Assembly: GCA_947457025.1 (NCBI GenBank)
Contig: CANGUI010000028.1
Location: 1 to 12,848, forward strand
DNA length: 12,848 bases
Direction: 5' to 3'
Origin: Flammeovirgaceae bacterium
GTDB lineage: Bacteria > Bacteroidota > Bacteroidia > Cytophagales > Cyclobacteriaceae
The notes below the pieces were generated by a model. It saw nothing but the letters and a program-made list of their open reading frames with translations. It did no database searches and was not told the origin of the DNA. Positions 6,014 to 12,848 of this stretch are shown one piece after another (the stretch's first letter is position 1; each line of letters begins with the position of its first letter). A program made the position numbers and the translations under genes.

Positions 6014-7993
6014 ATGAAGTACTCCCGTCACGGTCTTTCCGATGAAATACTGATCAAGCTCTTCGAGGCATTAACCTTTCCTCGCCTGATTGAGGAGAAA
6101 ATGCTCATTCTCTTGCGCCAGAACCGGATTAGCAAATGGTTCAGCGGCATCGGGCAGGAGGCAATTGCTGTCGGGATCACCCAAGCGTTGGAACCGGATG
6201 AGTACATTCTGCCCATGCACCGCAATCTGGGTGTTTTCACCGGGCGGGCAGTCCCTTTCGACCGCCTCTTTGCCCAATGGCAGGGGACCCCGCGGGGCTA
6301 TACCAAGGGGCGCGACCGGTCATTTCACTTTGGAACAAACGAGCATCATATTGTGGGAATGATCTCCCACCTGGGCCCTCAAAATGGTGTGGCCGACGGA
6401 ATCGCATTGGCGACACTGCTCAAAAAGGAAAAAAAGGTGACCGTGGTGTTCAACGGTGACGGGGGAACCAGCGAGGGTGATTTTCATGAAGCCGTAAATG
6501 TTGCTGCTGTTTGGGACCTACCCGTGATTTTTGTTATCGAAAACAATGGCTACGGTTTGAGTACGCCCAGTCATGAACAATTCCGTTGTAAACATTTTAT
6601 TGATAAAGCCATAGGCTATGGTATAGAAGGCATTCAGGTTGATGGCAACAACGTGTTGGAAGTGTATACAAAGGTGAAAGCCCTTGCGGAGTCCCTGCGA
6701 GAAAGACCCCGCCCGATCCTGCTCGAGTGCATCACGTTCCGGATGCGCGGGCACGAAGAAGCATCCGGCACCAAGTACGTCCCGGCCGAGTTGATGGAGC
6801 AATGGGCAAAAAAAGATCCGGTCGAAAACTATGAGCAGTTTCTTATTCGGGAGGGCGTACTGACTGCTGCCGAAGCGGACCGCACCCGCAAGCGCCTGAA
6901 AAAGCAAATTGAATCGGGACTGGAGACAGCTTTTACCGAAACCCATCCCCTTCCCGATACGACTCTCGAACTGAGCGACGTACATGCTCCATTTATTCAG
7001 GTGGTTCATGAACCCGCAAATACCGCTCGCACCGAAAAGCGTTTCGTTGATGCAATCAGCGATGCCCTACGGCAAAGCATGGAGCGTTTTCCTCAGTTAA
7101 TACTCATGGGGCAGGATATTGCCGATTATGGAGGCGTATTCAAGATCACCGACGGATTTGTAGCTCAGTTTGGTAAGGATCGTGTACGCAATACCCCGCT
7201 GTGCGAGGCGGCGATTGTGGGTGCAGCGCTGGGCTTGTCGGTAAAAGGCATGAAGGCCATGGTCGAAATGCAGTTTGCGGATTTTGTCACCGAGGGGTTT
7301 AATCAGATTGTCAACAACCTCGCCAAAATTCACTGGCGATGGGGTCAACCGGCAGACGTTGTCATCCGGATGCCGACCGGTGCAGGAACGGCGGCAGGTC
7401 CTTTTCACAGCCAGAGTAATGAGGCATGGTTTTTTCACACCCCGGGTTTGAAAATTGTGTACCCCTCGAACCCGTGGGACGCCAAAGGTCTGCTCAATGC
7501 TGCCATTGAGGATCCAAACCCTTATCTGTATTTTGAACACAAACTGATGTACCGCTCGCTGAAAGCCGAAATCCCGAACGACTACTACACCGTGGAGATC
7601 GGCAAAGCCCAGCGGGTAGCTGCTGGCACCGATTTGTCAATCATCACCTACGGCATGGGTGTGCATTGGGCTTTGGAAGTGATGGCGGCGTTTCCGCACT
7701 GGCGGGCTGATATCATTGACTTGCGCACCTTGTTGCCCTGGGATCAACAGCTTGTTGCTGAGAGCGTGCAAAAAACGAATCGCGTACTGGTATTACACGA
7801 AGATACACTCACGGGCGGCATTGGCGCCGAGATTACTGCCTGGATCACCGAACATTGTTTTAGGTGGCTCGATGCGCCTGTTTTGAGGGTGGCCAGCCTC
7901 GATACGCCTATACCCTTTGCCCCGACGTTGGAAAATAATTTCCTGCCGCGCGCCCGCCTGGCTGAAAGGGTAAAAGCAATCATGGATTTTTGA
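6014..7993 (+). CDS. Fused alpha/beta 2-oxoacid dehydrogenase E1 component
   Basis: This 659-residue protein joins the E1-alpha and E1-beta subunits of a thiamine-diphosphate 2-oxoacid dehydrogenase in one chain. Such E1s decarboxylate a 2-oxoacid (branched-chain oxoacids or pyruvate) and pass the acyl group to the lipoyl E2. The alpha half (about 1-325) has the ThDP motif from GDGGTSEGDFHEA (about 148-160) to ENN (176-178), and FRMRGHEEASGTKY, the equivalent of the regulatory loop. The beta half (about 345-659) begins RFVDAISDAL and contains MGQDIADYGGVFKITDG, the catalytic glutamate region (TPLCEAAIVGAALGLSVKG) and PTGAGTAAGPFHSQSNEAWF. Fused E1s of this length are common in Bacteroidota. 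AAAGG lies 6 bases before the ATG. No E2 or E3 gene is adjacent. Substrate is undetermined; branched-chain oxoacids are my first guess. Confidence 0.92.
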   Translation: MKYSRHGLSDEILIKLFEALTFPRLIEEKMLILLRQNRISKWFSGIGQEAIAVGITQALEPDEYILPMHRNLGVFTGRAVPFDRLFAQWQGTPRGYTKGRDRSFHFGTNEHHIVGMISHLGPQNGVADGIALATLLKKEKKVTVVFNGDGGTSEGDFHEAVNVAAVWDLPVIFVIENNGYGLSTPSHEQFRCKHFIDKAIGYGIEGIQVDGNNVLEVYTKVKALAESLRERPRPILLECITFRMRGHEEASGTKYVPAELMEQWAKKDPVENYEQFLIREGVLTAAEADRTRKRLKKQIESGLETAFTETHPLPDTTLELSDVHAPFIQVVHEPANTARTEKRFVDAISDALRQSMERFPQLILMGQDIADYGGVFKITDGFVAQFGKDRVRNTPLCEAAIVGAALGLSVKGMKAMVEMQFADFVTEGFNQIVNNLAKIHWRWGQPADVVIRMPTGAGTAAGPFHSQSNEAWFFHTPGLKIVYPSNPWDAKGLLNAAIEDPNPYLYFEHKLMYRSLKAEIPNDYYTVEIGKAQRVAAGTDLSIITYGMGVHWALEVMAAFPHWRADIIDLRTLLPWDQQLVAESVQKTNRVLVLHEDTLTGGIGAEITAWITEHCFRWLDAPVLRVASLDTPIPFAPTLENNFLPRARLAERVKAIMDF

Positions 7994-8003: not shown

Positions 8004-8021
8004 TCAGTGAAGAGTTGGCAT

Positions 8022-9635
8022 ATGCAACGGGCACAGCTTTTGATCGGATTCCTCTTGGTGGGAATACCGGCATTATCGCAAAACTTCACATCGTCAAACC
8101 TGCCAATTGTTATTATCAACACGTTTGGAACAGCGATTCCAGACGAGCCGAAAATTCCCGCAACGATGGGGATCATCAATCGGGGTGCTGGCTTGCGCAA
8201 CCAGACTACAGATACCTTCAATGATTACAATGGCCGAATTGGCATTGAGATCCGTGGTTCTTCGTCGCAATCGTTTCCCAAGAAACAGTATGGCATTGAA
8301 CTAAAGACTGATGGAGGTGCTGATCGGAGTGCAAGTTTATTGGGCATGCCTCCGGAAGAAGACTGGGTGCTTTTTGGCCCCTACAATGACAAGTCGTTGA
8401 TGCGTGATGTCCTTACCTACCTGCTGACGCGCTCACTCCATCACGTGTATGCGCCCAGGGCCCGATACTGCGAAGTCGTCATCAACAACGAATATCAGGG
8501 TGTTTATGCCATGATCGAAAAAATTAAGCGTGATGATAATCGGGTGGATATTGCCAGGTTGGAGCCGAGTGATAATGCAGGGGTCGAGTTGACGGGTGGT
8601 TACATCCTGAAAATTGACAAAACAGAGGGCGATAGCGGCCCGGGCTTCAATTCCCGGATATCGCCATTTCCAAACCCACGTTTACAGACCATTACCTATC
8701 AATACGAGTATCCCGCTTTTGACGAAATCACAAATGCTCAAAAGACGTACATCCAGAATTTTATCCATGCATTTGAAGAGGCCCTGGCCGGGCCCAACTT
8801 TACGGATCGTCAAACTGGCTATTACCGGTATCTTGATGTTGATTCGTTTGTGGATTATCTGATTGTCAATGAACTCACCCGTAACATCGATGGGTATCGG
8901 ATCAGCACTTTCCTGTATAAGCAAAAAGATACCGACGGTGGAAAATTGGTAATGGGGCCAGTATGGGATTTTAACCTTGCATTTGGAAATGTTGACTATT
9001 GTTCCGGTGGCAACATCGCTGGTTTTGCCTATGATTTTAACTCTATTTGCAGTAATGATGGGTGGCTGGTACCCTTTTGGTGGCACCGTTTGTTGCAGGA
9101 TCATTCATTCAGAAATCGCCTCGGTGGTCGCTGGGAAAGCCTGCGAGCCGGGGTGCTGAGCACGGACCGGATCCATGCCCGTATTGACAGCATCTCCACC
9201 TTGTTGAACGAATCACAGCAACGTAACTTTCAGCGTTGGCCGGTTCTCGGCCGATATGTGTGGCCCAATTTTTATGTTGGACCAACCTATCAATCGGAGG
9301 TAAACTGGCTGAAGAACTGGATTTCGATGCGCGTAACCTGGCTGGATAACAATTTCCCGAAGTTTGATCCCACGGCAGTCACGGAATCAAATGGTGCTTT
9401 TCACATCTTCCCGAATCCCGTGCGCGAAAAGCTTTGGTTGCAATGGGGTGAAGCGAATGCCGAATCCGCTGAAATCCGAATCTACAACGTGCGGGGTAGC
9501 CTGGTCCGGGATATGCAGATTGTGGTTGATCAACCCGTTGCGCTTGATATCCGGGATCTCGGTCCCGGGTTTTATTATATCCAGGCTCGGAGCGGGGGCC
9601 TTACAGCGAGCGGAAAATTCATCATCCAGTATTGA
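8022..9635 (+). CDS. Secreted CotH-family kinase homologue with type IX sorting tail
   Basis: The protein has 537 residues from the ATG at 8022. A GTG at 8007 would add five residues, but the ATG gives a clean signal peptide (RAQLLIGFLLVGIPALS, cleavage likely before QN at about 20). The body is a CotH kinase domain, related to Bacillus spore-coat CotH, an atypical secreted protein kinase. Evidence is EIRGSSSQSFPKKQYGIELK (about 76-95), EDWVLFGPYNDKSLMRD (about 113-129), and the strongly conserved GPVWDFNLAFGN (about 312-323) with the metal-binding aspartate Asp316. Residues 458-537 form a Por secretion tail (FPNPVREKLWLQW, IYNVRGSLV, LGPGFYYIQ, ending KFIIQY), which directs export by the type IX system and often surface anchoring. 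Its substrate is unknown. The gene starts 28 bases after the E1 gene. Confidence 0.93.
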   Translation: MQRAQLLIGFLLVGIPALSQNFTSSNLPIVIINTFGTAIPDEPKIPATMGIINRGAGLRNQTTDTFNDYNGRIGIEIRGSSSQSFPKKQYGIELKTDGGADRSASLLGMPPEEDWVLFGPYNDKSLMRDVLTYLLTRSLHHVYAPRARYCEVVINNEYQGVYAMIEKIKRDDNRVDIARLEPSDNAGVELTGGYILKIDKTEGDSGPGFNSRISPFPNPRLQTITYQYEYPAFDEITNAQKTYIQNFIHAFEEALAGPNFTDRQTGYYRYLDVDSFVDYLIVNELTRNIDGYRISTFLYKQKDTDGGKLVMGPVWDFNLAFGNVDYCSGGNIAGFAYDFNSICSNDGWLVPFWWHRLLQDHSFRNRLGGRWESLRAGVLSTDRIHARIDSISTLLNESQQRNFQRWPVLGRYVWPNFYVGPTYQSEVNWLKNWISMRVTWLDNNFPKFDPTAVTESNGAFHIFPNPVREKLWLQWGEANAESAEIRIYNVRGSLVRDMQIVVDQPVALDIRDLGPGFYYIQARSGGLTASGKFIIQY

Positions 9636-9638
9636 GCA

Positions 9639-9794
9639 ATGAGAGGCCCTTTTTCGAAAATCATCCGGGTTCTACTGAGGCTGGCCGCCAGACTGATTTT
9701 TTTTGTGTTTCGGCTGGGGTCGCACCAGATAGGTTACGCGCACGATGCAAAACCAGAATGCTTACAACCTGGCGCTCCACGTGAGCTGTCATGA
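9639..9794 (+). CDS. Small hypothetical frame after the CotH-like gene
   Basis: An ATG three bases after the CotH-like stop opens 51 codons. The N-terminal half is basic and hydrophobic (KIIRVLLRLAARLIFFVF), like a single membrane helix or signal anchor, and the rest shows no pattern. Its TGA overlaps the next frame's ATG as ATGA. I do not recognise it, and it may be a chance frame or the head of a frameshifted gene. Confidence 0.2.
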   Translation: MRGPFSKIIRVLLRLAARLIFFVFRLGSHQIGYAHDAKPECLQPGAPRELS

Positions 9795-10213
9795 TGTTTT
9801 ACTGCATGAGAAGAATAGCTACACGCCCTTTTCTTGTCACTGCTGCCATGGCTGTTTGTCCTCGCTTGCTGCGTTTTCAAACAGAAATGGTTCCTGCCAA
9901 ATTCGTTATGAATTATTTCTTGGTGACTGGGTTTGGGTTTTTCCTGACGGCGTGTGTTTTGATGCCCGAGCGGGTTGCCTCGTGGAATCGTTTTCTCATG
10001 CCGTGTATCGCCGAATATGGGAAAGCCCCCAATCCCATGGAACGTGTACCGGTTGTAACGAGCCTGGAATCACGGTGTACCCGGATCGAATATGTAGCTA
10101 ACCTGCCTCAATGGCCTACCGTCGAAGTGCGCATGAGGTTCGCTACGCAGGGCCTTGCGATAGTCCTGTTTAAAGTGGATACTTCGACTGAAGAATACTA
10201 CTCGCGAACATGA
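9791..10213 (+). CDS. Hypothetical protein, doubtful
   Basis: This 140-codon frame begins with two ATGs. It overlaps the small frame upstream and the DUF2490-like gene downstream by ATGA at both ends. Residues 42-56 (NYFLVTGFGFFLTAC) are hydrophobic, and LTAC resembles a lipobox but is far from the N-terminus, so a later start (for example Met40) would give a short lipoprotein-like product of about 100 residues. The alternative frame 9745-10101 is also open but very cysteine-rich and less protein-like. The stretch between two secure genes is about 570 bases, so something may be encoded here, possibly in decayed form. No family recognised. Confidence 0.3.
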   Translation: MMFYCMRRIATRPFLVTAAMAVCPRLLRFQTEMVPAKFVMNYFLVTGFGFFLTACVLMPERVASWNRFLMPCIAEYGKAPNPMERVPVVTSLESRCTRIEYVANLPQWPTVEVRMRFATQGLAIVLFKVDTSTEEYYSRT

Positions 10214-10908
10214 GATCGCTTCTATGTCTTATCACTGCATTGGCCTCTGTTTCAGGGTTGGCACAGGTTCCTGTACGTGACAACTGGCTTTGGCTTTCGG
10301 CGGAGCTGCAAAAAGAGCTAGCGAAAGATCTGGTAATCGCCATTAACGCCGAGACTCGGCTAAATGAAAATTATCGAAACGTTCGCTCCTATTTTGGAGA
10401 AGTGGAAGTTAGCTATAAGCTGAATAAGTACTTTTCGGGAAGTATCCAGTACCGTTATGGGGGGCGGGAGAATGATGTTTCTGACTTCGTGCGCGGCCAA
10501 CGCATAACGGGCTACCTGTACGGGCGTTTCAAAATCAGAAAATTTTCCTTCGCCAACCGGCTCGGGTATTTCCAACAGTATCTCAAGTTGGATGCGGGTG
10601 ACGATCGAATCAATCCGGAAACCTACTGGCGCAATCGCTTTCAGGCCAAGTACAAGATGAGCAAGGCCATCGAGCCACTGATGAGCATCGAATTTTTTTA
10701 CCGGACATTTGATGATCGCAATCGCATAGATGAGTGGCGATATGCGTTGGGACTTGAAATCGAGTTGAATAAACAGCATACCTTGAAACCCGTATTTCTT
10801 CTCTCCCGTCAAGTCAATGTCCGGCGTCCCGACATCCGAAATATTCTGAGTGTCGGTTATGTGTATTCAATTCCCCTTAAAAAGCGGAACCAGAATAGCA
10901 AATCCTGA
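10210..10908 (+). CDS. DUF2490-like outer membrane beta-barrel protein
   Basis: This 232-residue protein has a signal peptide (RSLLCLITALASVSGLA, cleavage likely before QV at about 19). The rest alternates short amphipathic strands rich in Tyr, Phe and Arg: NWLWLSAELQKEL, VRSYFGEVEVSYKLN, SGSIQYRYGG, FANRLGYFQQYLKL, SIEFFYRTF, WRYALGLEIELN and ILSVGYVYSIPL. This layout and length match the DUF2490 family of Bacteroidota outer membrane proteins, whose function is unknown. The chain ends in a basic tail (KKRNQNSKS) after the last strand. The ATG overlaps the preceding frame's TGA by ATGA. The start is secure because the signal peptide begins there. The repeat-protein gene starts 43 bases downstream. 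Confidence 0.72.
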   Translation: MRSLLCLITALASVSGLAQVPVRDNWLWLSAELQKELAKDLVIAINAETRLNENYRNVRSYFGEVEVSYKLNKYFSGSIQYRYGGRENDVSDFVRGQRITGYLYGRFKIRKFSFANRLGYFQQYLKLDAGDDRINPETYWRNRFQAKYKMSKAIEPLMSIEFFYRTFDDRNRIDEWRYALGLEIELNKQHTLKPVFLLSRQVNVRRPDIRNILSVGYVYSIPLKKRNQNSKS

Positions 10909-10951: not shown

Positions 10952-12848
10952 ATGGTGTTCGTATACCCAAACCGGTTAACATTAGTGCGGTGGGCCATTG
11001 TCGGCTTACTCGTAACGGCCGTTGTGGGGTCTGGTTACGGTCAGAACACGAAGGGTGACCGCCCTCAGCAGAATCAGCGCCAGGTGCGGGAGACCCGCAA
11101 TAAATCGATCTTCCGAAAGGAGCGAACCCGAACACGGGATATTTCTGGCCGGCGGCTGCGAACCTTGAATAAGTCCTCCGCTAATCGGGCCAATACAACA
11201 TACCGACAACCCAATCCTTATGCCAGCCGCAGCCGGGTGAATAATAACGTACCTTCTCGCACGCGGGTGCGCGTGAATACATCCCGACCTCGGGAAACAC
11301 GACGGGCTTGGGTTGGCGATATCGCGGGCAAACCGATAAGACGAGTACAACCCAGAAAAACAGAGGCGGCTCGAACGAACATTTACGCACAACGCGGGCC
11401 CTTGGTGCGCAACTTCCGGCGTAGTCCGCGGGAACAGCGAACATTTCGGGTGACCGGCCAAACTGCCTCTGGTTCTCCGGTTATACGCCGAACGCCTAAA
11501 CCCATATCGAAGCCGTGGCGCGGTAATCTTAGGGGCCAACGGGTTCAGGTACGATCTGCTACCAGCCGGATAAAAAATATCTATCCGCAGCGAAATCCTT
11601 TTTCGGCTTTCGGGCGTTTTCCGGAGCCGTCCGATAAACGCGAAAAAAAGTCGAAGATGCGCAGCACACAGGTGCGTACTGTTTCTGCCCTGCGCCGTCG
11701 CGTGGGGGGGCAACCAGCGCCTGTTTCGGTTAGCGGTCGGTCGAGGGTTACACCCGGACGTAAAAATGTGTATTGGGGAAAGGAGAAACGCAAAGGCAGG
11801 GCCGTTACAACCGATCTGGCCGGCCGCCCCTTGCGAACCCGGAATTTCAGGTCTGCTACTCCCGCACTCGTTGATCGAGATACACTACGTACTTTTCGTA
11901 AGCGTCCTGTATCAACTGCACTGCGATGGAGTGAGCGTAAAAGGCCCGCGTCTGCAACACGTGGCCCTCGAGTGTGGAAAGGAGACCTTGCCGGAAGCCC
12001 GGTTCGGAAGCGGAAACCAAAAACGACATTCAATGTGAAAGGTCCGTTGGCCCCCACCTATCCCGGGGCCAGTGCCTGGTTCCTGGGTCGAGCTTTGAGG
12101 AAAACAAAGGGAGCAAAACCGTTCAAAGGTGGTGGGTCGGTAAGCGATGGAGCCCGTAACAATCGAGGTCAACCTATTCCGGTACGGCAGGGGGGTGGTG
12201 CTTCCGGGCCTGGCGCGCAATACCGCGGGCGTATAAACTTCTATAAACAACGTGGCTTTGAAACGCAGGGCAGCGGTTACCGTGGTAAACTCGACTTCTA
12301 CCGGCAGCGTGGTATCGAAACGAGCGGGGGGCGTTACCGGGGAAAGATCAAGTCTTCCAGGCCGCAACGTGGGGGAGGTAGTGTTAGTGGTCGCCCGCTC
12401 GATAATGGAGGGCGCCCCGTACTGGTGCGAATGGGTGGACGTGGTTCGCTTGAGGGTGGCGTCTATCGCGGCAAGCTGGACTTTTACAAACAGCGCGGAA
12501 TTCAAACAGCGGGTGGAAACTTTAAAGGCAGATTAAAGGGTTCGAAACCCGTGAAAGGCGGTGGCAGCGTCAGTAGTCGGTCGCGCAACAATGGGGATCG
12601 CCCGGTAGCGGTGCGTACCGGCGGCCGTGGCTCTCTTGAGGGAGGCATGTACCGTGGCAAATTAGATTTTTACAAACAACGCGGAGTCGAAACTGCCGGA
12701 GGAAAATTTAAAGGCAAATTAGATTTTTACAAACAACGCGGAATCGAAGCGGCCAGTGGAAACTTCAAAGGAAAATTAAAGGCTTCGAAACCGTTAAAAG
12801 GCGGTGGCAGCATCAGCAGCCGGCCGCGCAACAACGGTGATCGTCCGG
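10952..12848 (+). CDS. Exported arginine-rich repeat protein, 5' part (gene runs off the window)
   Basis: A single frame is open from ATG 10952 to the end of the window: 632 codons and no stop. Residues 13-32 (RWAIVGLLVTAVVGSGYGQN) look like a signal peptide with cleavage near GYG/QN, so the product should be exported. Residues 31-390 are rich in Arg, Thr, Ser and Pro. I count about 70 Arg in 360 residues (19%) against about 17 Asp plus Glu, and no cysteine anywhere. Four copies of a W-x-G-D-[IL]-A-G-x-P-x-R-like motif lie in this part. From about residue 391 it becomes a mosaic of K-G-G-G-S modules and 19-residue [YF]-[RK]-G-K-L-D-F-Y-K-Q-R-G modules. The strong positive charge suggests binding to polyanions such as LPS, DNA or teichuronic-like polymers, or to the cell wall, but that is inference. 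It follows a DUF2490-like outer membrane gene by 43 bases; a near-match to the -7 box (TATTTCTG, 10936-10943) lies in the gap. No named family recognised. Confidence 0.88.
   Translation, partial: MVFVYPNRLTLVRWAIVGLLVTAVVGSGYGQNTKGDRPQQNQRQVRETRNKSIFRKERTRTRDISGRRLRTLNKSSANRANTTYRQPNPYASRSRVNNNVPSRTRVRVNTSRPRETRRAWVGDIAGKPIRRVQPRKTEAARTNIYAQRGPLVRNFRRSPREQRTFRVTGQTASGSPVIRRTPKPISKPWRGNLRGQRVQVRSATSRIKNIYPQRNPFSAFGRFPEPSDKREKKSKMRSTQVRTVSALRRRVGGQPAPVSVSGRSRVTPGRKNVYWGKEKRKGRAVTTDLAGRPLRTRNFRSATPALVDRDTLRTFRKRPVSTALRWSERKRPASATRGPRVWKGDLAGSPVRKRKPKTTFNVKGPLAPTYPGASAWFLGRALRKTKGAKPFKGGGSVSDGARNNRGQPIPVRQGGGASGPGAQYRGRINFYKQRGFETQGSGYRGKLDFYRQRGIETSGGRYRGKIKSSRPQRGGGSVSGRPLDNGGRPVLVRMGGRGSLEGGVYRGKLDFYKQRGIQTAGGNFKGRLKGSKPVKGGGSVSSRSRNNGDRPVAVRTGGRGSLEGGMYRGKLDFYKQRGVETAGGKFKGKLDFYKQRGIEAASGNFKGKLKASKPLKGGGSISSRPRNNGDRP
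11309..12007 (+). repeat. Four degenerate W-x-G-D-[IL]-A-G-x-P-x-R motifs
   Basis: Within the arginine-rich part of the repeat protein the motif occurs as WVGDIAGKPIR (11309-11341), WRGNLRGQRV (11516-11545, degenerate), TDLAGRPLR (11810-11836, with a W 11 residues before the TD) and WKGDLAGSPVR (11975-12007). Spacing is irregular, from about 50 to 100 residues. These look like old, diverged copies of one module, separated by Arg/Pro/Ser-rich linkers. Confidence 0.6.
12221..12848 (+). repeat. Mosaic of 57-base (B) and 129-base (A) coding repeats
   Basis: In-frame modules follow each other without gaps: B1 12221-12277, B2 12278-12334, A1 12335-12463, B3 12464-12520, A2 12521-12649, B4 12650-12706, B5 12707-12763, A3 12764 onward, cut by the window end. 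B is 19 residues, consensus [YF]-[RK]-G-K-L-D-F-Y-K-Q-R-G-x-E-T-x-G-G-x. A is 43 residues: it starts [YF]-[RK]-G-[KR]-[LI]-K, then S-[KR]-P-x-[KR]-G-G-G-S-[VI]-S, an N-N-G-x-R-P stretch and G-G-R-G-S-L-E-G-G. An earlier, looser A-like segment (KPFKGGGSVS and NN) sits at about 12116-12220. A and B begin with the same [YF]-[RK]-G-[KR] edge, so they are probably relatives. Confidence 0.85.
12656..12742 (+). repeat. Exact 30-base direct repeat at 57-base spacing
   Basis: Bases 12656-12685 and 12713-12742 are identical over 30 bases, from GGCAAATTAGA through to CAACGCGGA, exactly one B module (57 bases) apart. Older B copies (B1-B3) encode the same residues with different codons, so B4/B5 is a recent tandem duplication or gene-conversion product. 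Confidence 0.8.

Follow-up and report, generated by a model that had tools for sequence, protein, structure and literature searches.

What kind of protein is encoded by the long, arginine-rich reading frame that runs off the end of this contig, and is it a member of a family with a recognizable place in the genome and in the cell? The window, i.e. the whole stretch of DNA analysed, is identical to the contig G000:C28 (12848 bases), and the open end of the frame is the end of the contig. Translation from the ATG at position 10952 remained open for 632 codons up to the window edge at 12848, in agreement with the long frame with a signal-like start given in the preliminary description. The remainder was found on a second contig of this genome; the features of the gene referred to below are as follows.

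10952..12848, plus strand: first 632 codons of the gene for the polycationic repeat protein (open frame; the rest lies on G000:C59).
G000:C59, 8598 down to 7633, minus strand: remaining 321 codons and stop codon (same genome, other contig).
10952..11041, plus strand: signal-peptide-like sequence, residues 1-30, ending in G-Y-G before Gln31 (from N-terminal hydrophobicity and the residues of relatives).
11042..11194, plus strand: conserved mature N-terminal block (QNTKGDRP ... RRLRT ... SSANRAN), residues 31-81 (alignment).
11765..11782, plus strand: NVYWGK motif of the central conserved block, residues 272-277 (alignments).
12128..12848, plus strand: start of the repeat array of GGGS[VI]S and YRGKLDFYKQRG-type units (unit starts at 12128, 12371, 12557 and 12800).

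A database protein of 955 amino acids (P0001) spans both pieces. It includes the complete translation from the window, agrees exactly with the C59 piece from residue 636 to its C-terminus, and is two residues longer than the two pieces together, the difference lying at the contig break. The assembly thus broke within the repeat array, which leaves the number of repeat copies in this particular genome uncertain. If P0001 represents the strain of the window, 955 amino acids would be the full length. A stop codon shortly after the window, which had been named as a possible objection, is ruled out by the 321 further codons on C59; with regard to a frameshift, the same frame was carried through in five database proteins that are about 99% alike.

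The composition of the protein was in accordance with the first account. Arginine makes up 70 of 360 residues between positions 31 and 390 (19.4%, where about 19% had been estimated), the acidic residues stated to be few amount to 17 Asp and Glu in the same region, and cysteine, described as missing, was found neither in the window part nor in full-length P0001. A lipobox cysteine at the cleavage site, the criterion for a lipoprotein, is likewise absent. Residues 31-955 of P0001 have a net charge of +161 and a pI of 11.7, and in all 25 tabulated members the net charge is positive and the pI at least 10.0. By a charge-hydropathy test the chain falls on the disordered side, a result hard to square with the strong sequence constraint reported below unless ligand binding makes the repeats fold. 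At the N-terminus, hydrophobicity peaks in the 11-residue stretch that starts at residue 15. In the relatives, a small-x-small pattern, most commonly A-x-A, mostly precedes the conserved mature start. Among the 100 of 166 proteins in which the start Q(NTKG or D[RK]) was located within the first 80 residues with at least 12 residues ahead of it, position -3 was occupied by Ala (58), Gly (14), Ser (14), Val (10) or Thr (2) and position -1 by Ala (65), Ser (20) or Gly (15). Judged from the N-terminus alone, the repeat protein would be exported via Sec with a cleavable signal peptide.

In P0001 the signal-like start is followed by the N-terminal block, a series of W-x-G-[DN]-[IL] modules, the central NVYWGK block, the repeat array and a C-terminal block. 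An alignment of 73 proteins showed conservation peaks at residues 31-90, 271-300 and 871-955, and conservation was lowest in the signal region and in parts of the repeat array. The mean share of the most frequent residue was 0.72 over residues 31-60 and 0.78 over residues 61-90. The NVYWGK motif was invariant among 25 aligned proteins; among the 73, YWGK was invariant and NV reached at least 90%. Inside the window, GGGS[VI]S units start at residues 393, 474, 536 and 617, at spacings of 81, 62 and 81 residues, and are interleaved with YRGKLDFYKQRG-type units, which corresponds to the C-terminal mosaic of two repeat types noted earlier. An aromatic-x-Gly motif ([YFW]xG[DNSKRTEFY][ILMVFY]), picked after the sequences had been read, occurred 16 times in P0001, whereas 500 shuffles gave 0.98 on average and never more than 5. 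Counts of at least 10 were obtained only in full-length relatives of the same family and counts of 0 to 5 in the other tabulated members; the motif is therefore not a family-wide repeat.

The repeat array varies in length between nearly identical proteins. Among five proteins with about 99% identity over their aligned parts, the numbers of GGGS units are 6, 5, 5, 5 and 4, and the differences consist of blocks of 62, 81 or 143 residues, plus 31 residues at the annotated start. In 12 hand-chosen proteins, units resembled each other more within one protein (0.586, n=206) than across proteins (0.439, n=2422), as expected under concerted evolution; P0064, with two units, was the exception, its units being no more alike within than between. 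Over the aligned parts, omega was 0.035-0.067 in the three of eight pairs with computable dS, rough values given that dS was 1.8-2.8 in these pairs and near saturation. The dN of the repeat protein was lower than that of BrxC, the product of a neighbouring gene, in seven of eight pairs. These values are signs of purifying selection on the repeat protein.

Searches of Pfam and NCBIfam matched no family, either with the window part or with full-length P0001, and PDB sequences searched with profile A2 gave no distinct match at E<=1, so the absence of a family name in the preliminary description stands. The lack of matches is probably explained by the repeats, which ordinary searches handle poorly. 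A protein search yielded 366 homologues among 7991 scored candidates, and these keep repeats at the protein level as well as the block order; the objection that homologues might not exist is thereby excluded. All names among the 120 matches listed were 'hypothetical protein', one of these proteins carrying a Pfam domain, and their sources were Cyclobacteriaceae, Flammeovirgaceae, other Bacteroidota MAGs and a soil metagenome. The 50 loci obtained from a scan of named genome contigs were all titled as MAGs. When a 316-amino-acid member (from locus L151, 6423-7370) was used as query, Cytophaga aurantiaca and Cytophagaceae MAGs were named as sources, again with 'hypothetical protein' wherever a name was given. 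Judged by titles and the openings of abstracts, no paper on the family was found in the literature; in the part of PMC6247017 consulted, the repeat-protein gene was not named, a search made without its locus tag.

The whole family has only one part in common, a conserved domain of about 95 residues at the C-terminus, marked by conserved HP, P-Y-D and E..W positions. Members were recognized by this domain, and the gene of the window has it with these positions, its copy lying on contig C59. All 36 genomes of the same genus, the window's own included, gave a match, whereas none of 22 genomes of other families did at the same sensitivity; the matched stretch contained stops in G024 and G028. A broken frame was seen in two relatives (L024:6597-9107 and L034:6252-9166), the L024 locus having ambiguous bases in addition. 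In genome G010 of the genus, which carries the full protein on contig C48, repeat-type matches occurred at a second place (C274:2232-2810, frame of 645 amino acids). A full-length family profile gave matches in 20 of the order's 291 genomes; these were long in other genera of the family and confined to the C-terminus in further genera and in two other families. The proteins at these loci have entirely different repeats, for example SPRLSAGSPFTKKDK, RSKGPKNDGSRVRVRE and GNTLGREEHKSMMAAKNEEL, together with the same C-terminus of about 95 residues, often in the same place. When 12 C-termini from other families were compared by hhalign with the profile of the window's family, a probability of 97.8% (E 7e-13) was obtained, versus 0.1% (E 0.48) with the reversed profile. 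Homology within the family is well supported.

At E<=0.01, a C-terminal profile of 27 rows (A6), built with ten more members found beside BrxC, matched 89 of the 291 genomes of the order, belonging to 56 of 115 genera; at E<=1e-15 it matched 63, belonging to 11 families. Rows of A6 had been supplied by 23 of the 89 matched genomes, and 66 (40 at E<=1e-15) had supplied none. The match was single in 88 of the 89 genomes. There may be false matches between E 1e-15 and 0.01, where the gene stood beside BrxC in only two of the 17 genomes with BrxC placed. No match to A6 was obtained in 202 of the 291 genomes, other genera of the window's family among them; the repeat protein is therefore not needed throughout the order. 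Beyond the order, A3, a profile weaker than A6, matched four of 395 genomes of the class and four of 296 of the phylum, all in the window's family. A6 matched five of 227 genomes of the class, one of which belongs to another order; this weak C-terminal match (G431:C19:140710-140967, E 1.8e-4) lies in a frame of 190 amino acids.

The neighbourhood of the gene was examined both in the window and in relatives. Upstream of the repeat gene, the window contains the following genes.

6014..7993, plus strand: fused E1 dehydrogenase with alpha and beta parts, the common upstream neighbour (family scan).
8007-9635: CotH-domain protein with a type A sorting domain of the type IX secretion system (T9SS) (PF08757, PF18962, TIGR04183).
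9791-10213: ORF of 140 amino acids without a Pfam match, between the CotH and DUF2490 genes.
10210..10908, plus strand: DUF2490 protein, directly upstream of the repeat gene (PF10677, E 7e-19).

The CotH gene, the 140-amino-acid ORF and the DUF2490 gene separate E1 from the repeat gene in the window, and none of them is a shared neighbour. DUF2490 was considered as a partner and rejected, since it was not such a neighbour in 20 relatives. Downstream, on C59, the next gene is BrxC, and the gene of the window thus occupies the position between the E1 dehydrogenase and BrxC by which the family was also recognized. The shared neighbours are the E1 dehydrogenase, BrxC, OsmC and an outer-membrane-type protein. 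They were present in 29 (E1), 26 (BrxC), 21 (OsmC) and 27 (outer-membrane-type protein) of 35 relatives' loci, counted within the fetched stretches of relatives that had been picked via the repeat protein and of which 20 belong to the window's genus. The names BrxC, OsmC, lipoyl synthase, IspF-type (YgbB) and M16 peptidase rest on checks of one or two examples per gene. A PorP/SprF-type neighbour, of which the first account had only a vague impression, could not be recognized among the genes scanned: the upstream gene encodes DUF2490, and the outer-membrane-type protein downstream has no Pfam or NCBIfam match.

Among 60 genomes in which both genes were placed, the repeat gene lay at most 500 bp upstream of the bacilliredoxin gene brxC on the same strand in 31, and at E<=1e-15 in 29 of 43. 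Ten of the 60 had been found through BrxC, their adjacency being given by construction; when these were left out, the figures were 21 of 50 and, at E<=1e-15, 19 of 33. The remaining 29 of the 60 genomes did not have the gene within 500 bp of BrxC, some of them with genes on short contigs. Distances between C-terminal domains followed those between E1 proteins in 37 loci (Mantel r 0.752; reached by none of 2000 permutations, the largest giving 0.338), which fits mostly vertical inheritance. By these sequence comparisons, the gene of the window represents, in an uncultured lineage of Cyclobacteriaceae-like bacteria, the ortholog of a Cytophagales family whose inheritance is mostly vertical. The agreement with E1 distances also bears on the suspicion, raised by the compositional bias and the repeats, that a biased open frame has been retained as a low-complexity by-product without function; together with the low omega, the conserved ends, the single match per genome and the shared place, it makes such an explanation scarcely credible.

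The common neighbourhood might suggest that the repeat protein is a redox- or lipoate-linked accessory of the adjacent enzymes (E1 dehydrogenase, BrxC, OsmC and lipoyl synthase). In 32 of 36 comparable loci, a candidate BrxC start fell in the interval from 50 bases before to 15 bases after the end of the repeat gene, start codons not being resolved, and this closeness or overlap is in favour of such a link. The signal-like N-terminus, however, would place the repeat protein in a compartment other than that of these enzymes, 24 of the 25 tabulated members have no cysteine beyond residue 30 and the other has a single one, and genome G154 (locus L117) has no ORF of at least 80 amino acids between E1 and BrxC at all. 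We regard a redox- or lipoate-linked role as very improbable.

Small genes were observed at several loci of relatives. In other families, a lipoprotein-like gene encoding 85-127 amino acids, with a cysteine after a hydrophobic stretch and a basic second half, was found directly upstream of the repeat protein in nine of 12 loci with BrxC adjoining; it was not seen for L099, L120 and L121. The nine genes are located as follows.

L098:8827-9135, L119:3220-3519 and L129:6287-6547: small lipoprotein-like genes.
L130:6342-6617, L132:5883-6143 and L133:4510-4833: small lipoprotein-like genes.
L145:5790-6173, L148:3355-3612 and L151:6149-6412: small lipoprotein-like genes.

The examples of L129 and L151 gave no NCBIfam or Pfam match. 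In the window's family, no lipobox pattern was matched between E1 and the repeat gene. An ORF of 97-99 amino acids between E1 and the repeat gene in three relatives was rejected as a lipoprotein because it had neither signal nor lipobox. In family f13, the usual place of the repeat protein between E1 and BrxC is occupied by short basic ORFs with signals (157 and 119 amino acids), which did not match the C-terminal profile.

L125:2388-2861, L125:2752-3396 and L126:2189-2548: ORFs of family f13 (those of L125 include a lipoprotein-like one).

The outer-membrane-type protein, of about 245 amino acids, is encoded downstream of BrxC (L003:6091-6822, minus strand; relatives in alignment A7), and the examples scanned matched neither Pfam nor NCBIfam. 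The presence of its gene in 27 of the 35 stretches fetched would suit a cell-surface or matrix protein that crosses the outer membrane by an unspecified route and acts as an adhesin or biofilm cement on exopolysaccharide, extracellular DNA or environmental polyanions; the large size, the repeats, their variable number between near-identical proteins and the strong positive charge point in the same direction. The outer-membrane-type protein was, however, present in all of 80 Cytophagales genomes, of which 40 matched the repeat protein and 40 did not, the latter being those not listed among the A6 matches rather than confirmed one by one; it was single in 78 and in pieces in two. Its adjacency is therefore no evidence of partnership, and it was rejected as a dedicated partner. 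Export was considered for T9SS. Cargo of this system in Bacteroidota is, like the protein of the window, large and provided with a signal-like start, and the lineage does possess such cargo, as the CotH neighbour matches both sorting-domain models (PF18962 and TIGR04183). In contrast, the window part and P0001 match neither model, and their conserved C-terminus is a different sequence. This result, which covers only that route of export across the outer membrane, argues against a surface protein, and we consider a surface or matrix role possible, if rather unlikely.

A further explanation is that the repeat protein belongs to, or assists, the machinery of gliding motility or type IX secretion, e.g. 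as a scaffold beneath the outer membrane. A member is annotated in Cytophaga aurantiaca, and Cytophaga is a gliding genus. The shared neighbours scanned were, however, not gliding or secretion genes. GldB (TIGR03514) was tried as a marker of a link to gliding and was uninformative: it was found in 39 of 40 genomes with the repeat protein and in 40 of 40 without, and with its presence in 79 of 80 genomes it cannot discriminate. A role in gliding or secretion thus appears improbable.

Homology, a shared locus, charge, repeat turnover and constraint are features of the family as observed; we infer export, an envelope location, an anchoring role and a polyanionic ligand. The repeat protein may be a Sec-exported polycationic scaffold of the envelope with a conserved C-terminal anchor and with repeats that bind an anionic polymer, a reading which we put forward tentatively, at somewhat less than an even chance. 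The protein would leave the cytoplasm via the Sec pathway, its signal peptide would be cleaved, and the mature polycationic chain would stay in the cell envelope. Because no T9SS sorting domain was matched, the default location is taken to be periplasmic or on the inner face of the outer membrane. There the C-terminal domain, as the sole part common to all members, might dock at a fixed site and serve as the anchor, while the Arg/Lys-rich repeats would bind peptidoglycan, LPS phosphates or exopolysaccharide as the anionic polymer; a cationic repeat at such a location would encounter peptidoglycan and the phosphates of lipid A. The number of repeats might set the reach of this binding.

Comparable proteins are known from other bacteria. 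The heparin-binding haemagglutinin of mycobacteria is exported and repetitive and binds sulphated glycosaminoglycans. Such polymers are also bound by a collagen-like protein of Legionella, according to the part of the source consulted (PMC11162425). Both resemble the protein of the window in being exported and repetitive, a likeness of description, and differ from it in that the latter possesses N-terminal, central and C-terminal blocks of its own and an order-wide place. A further comparison is with the shorter repeat proteins of Cytophaga and other families, which share the C-terminal domain, the place beside BrxC and the sign of the charge. They comprise 232-671 amino acids (ten loci), their repeats are unlike those of the window protein and, unlike in the window's family, the small lipoprotein-like gene mostly precedes them.

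A wider claim is that the family represents a new component of the envelope, a polycationic scaffold ancestral to the Cytophagales, in which the repeats have been replaced wholesale in place and the anchor and often the locus have been kept. We hold this to be unlikely as it stands; if true, the scaffold could link peptidoglycan to the outer membrane, or gauge their spacing, in the flexible cells of Bacteroidota. The family is distributed over 11 families of one order (E<=1e-15), shows signs of purifying selection and has a shared place, and yet has no match in Pfam, NCBIfam or PDB sequences; naming it would provide a testable gene in Cytophaga. It would also be a clear case in which the end domain, the charge and the locus are kept while most of the sequence of a protein is replaced.
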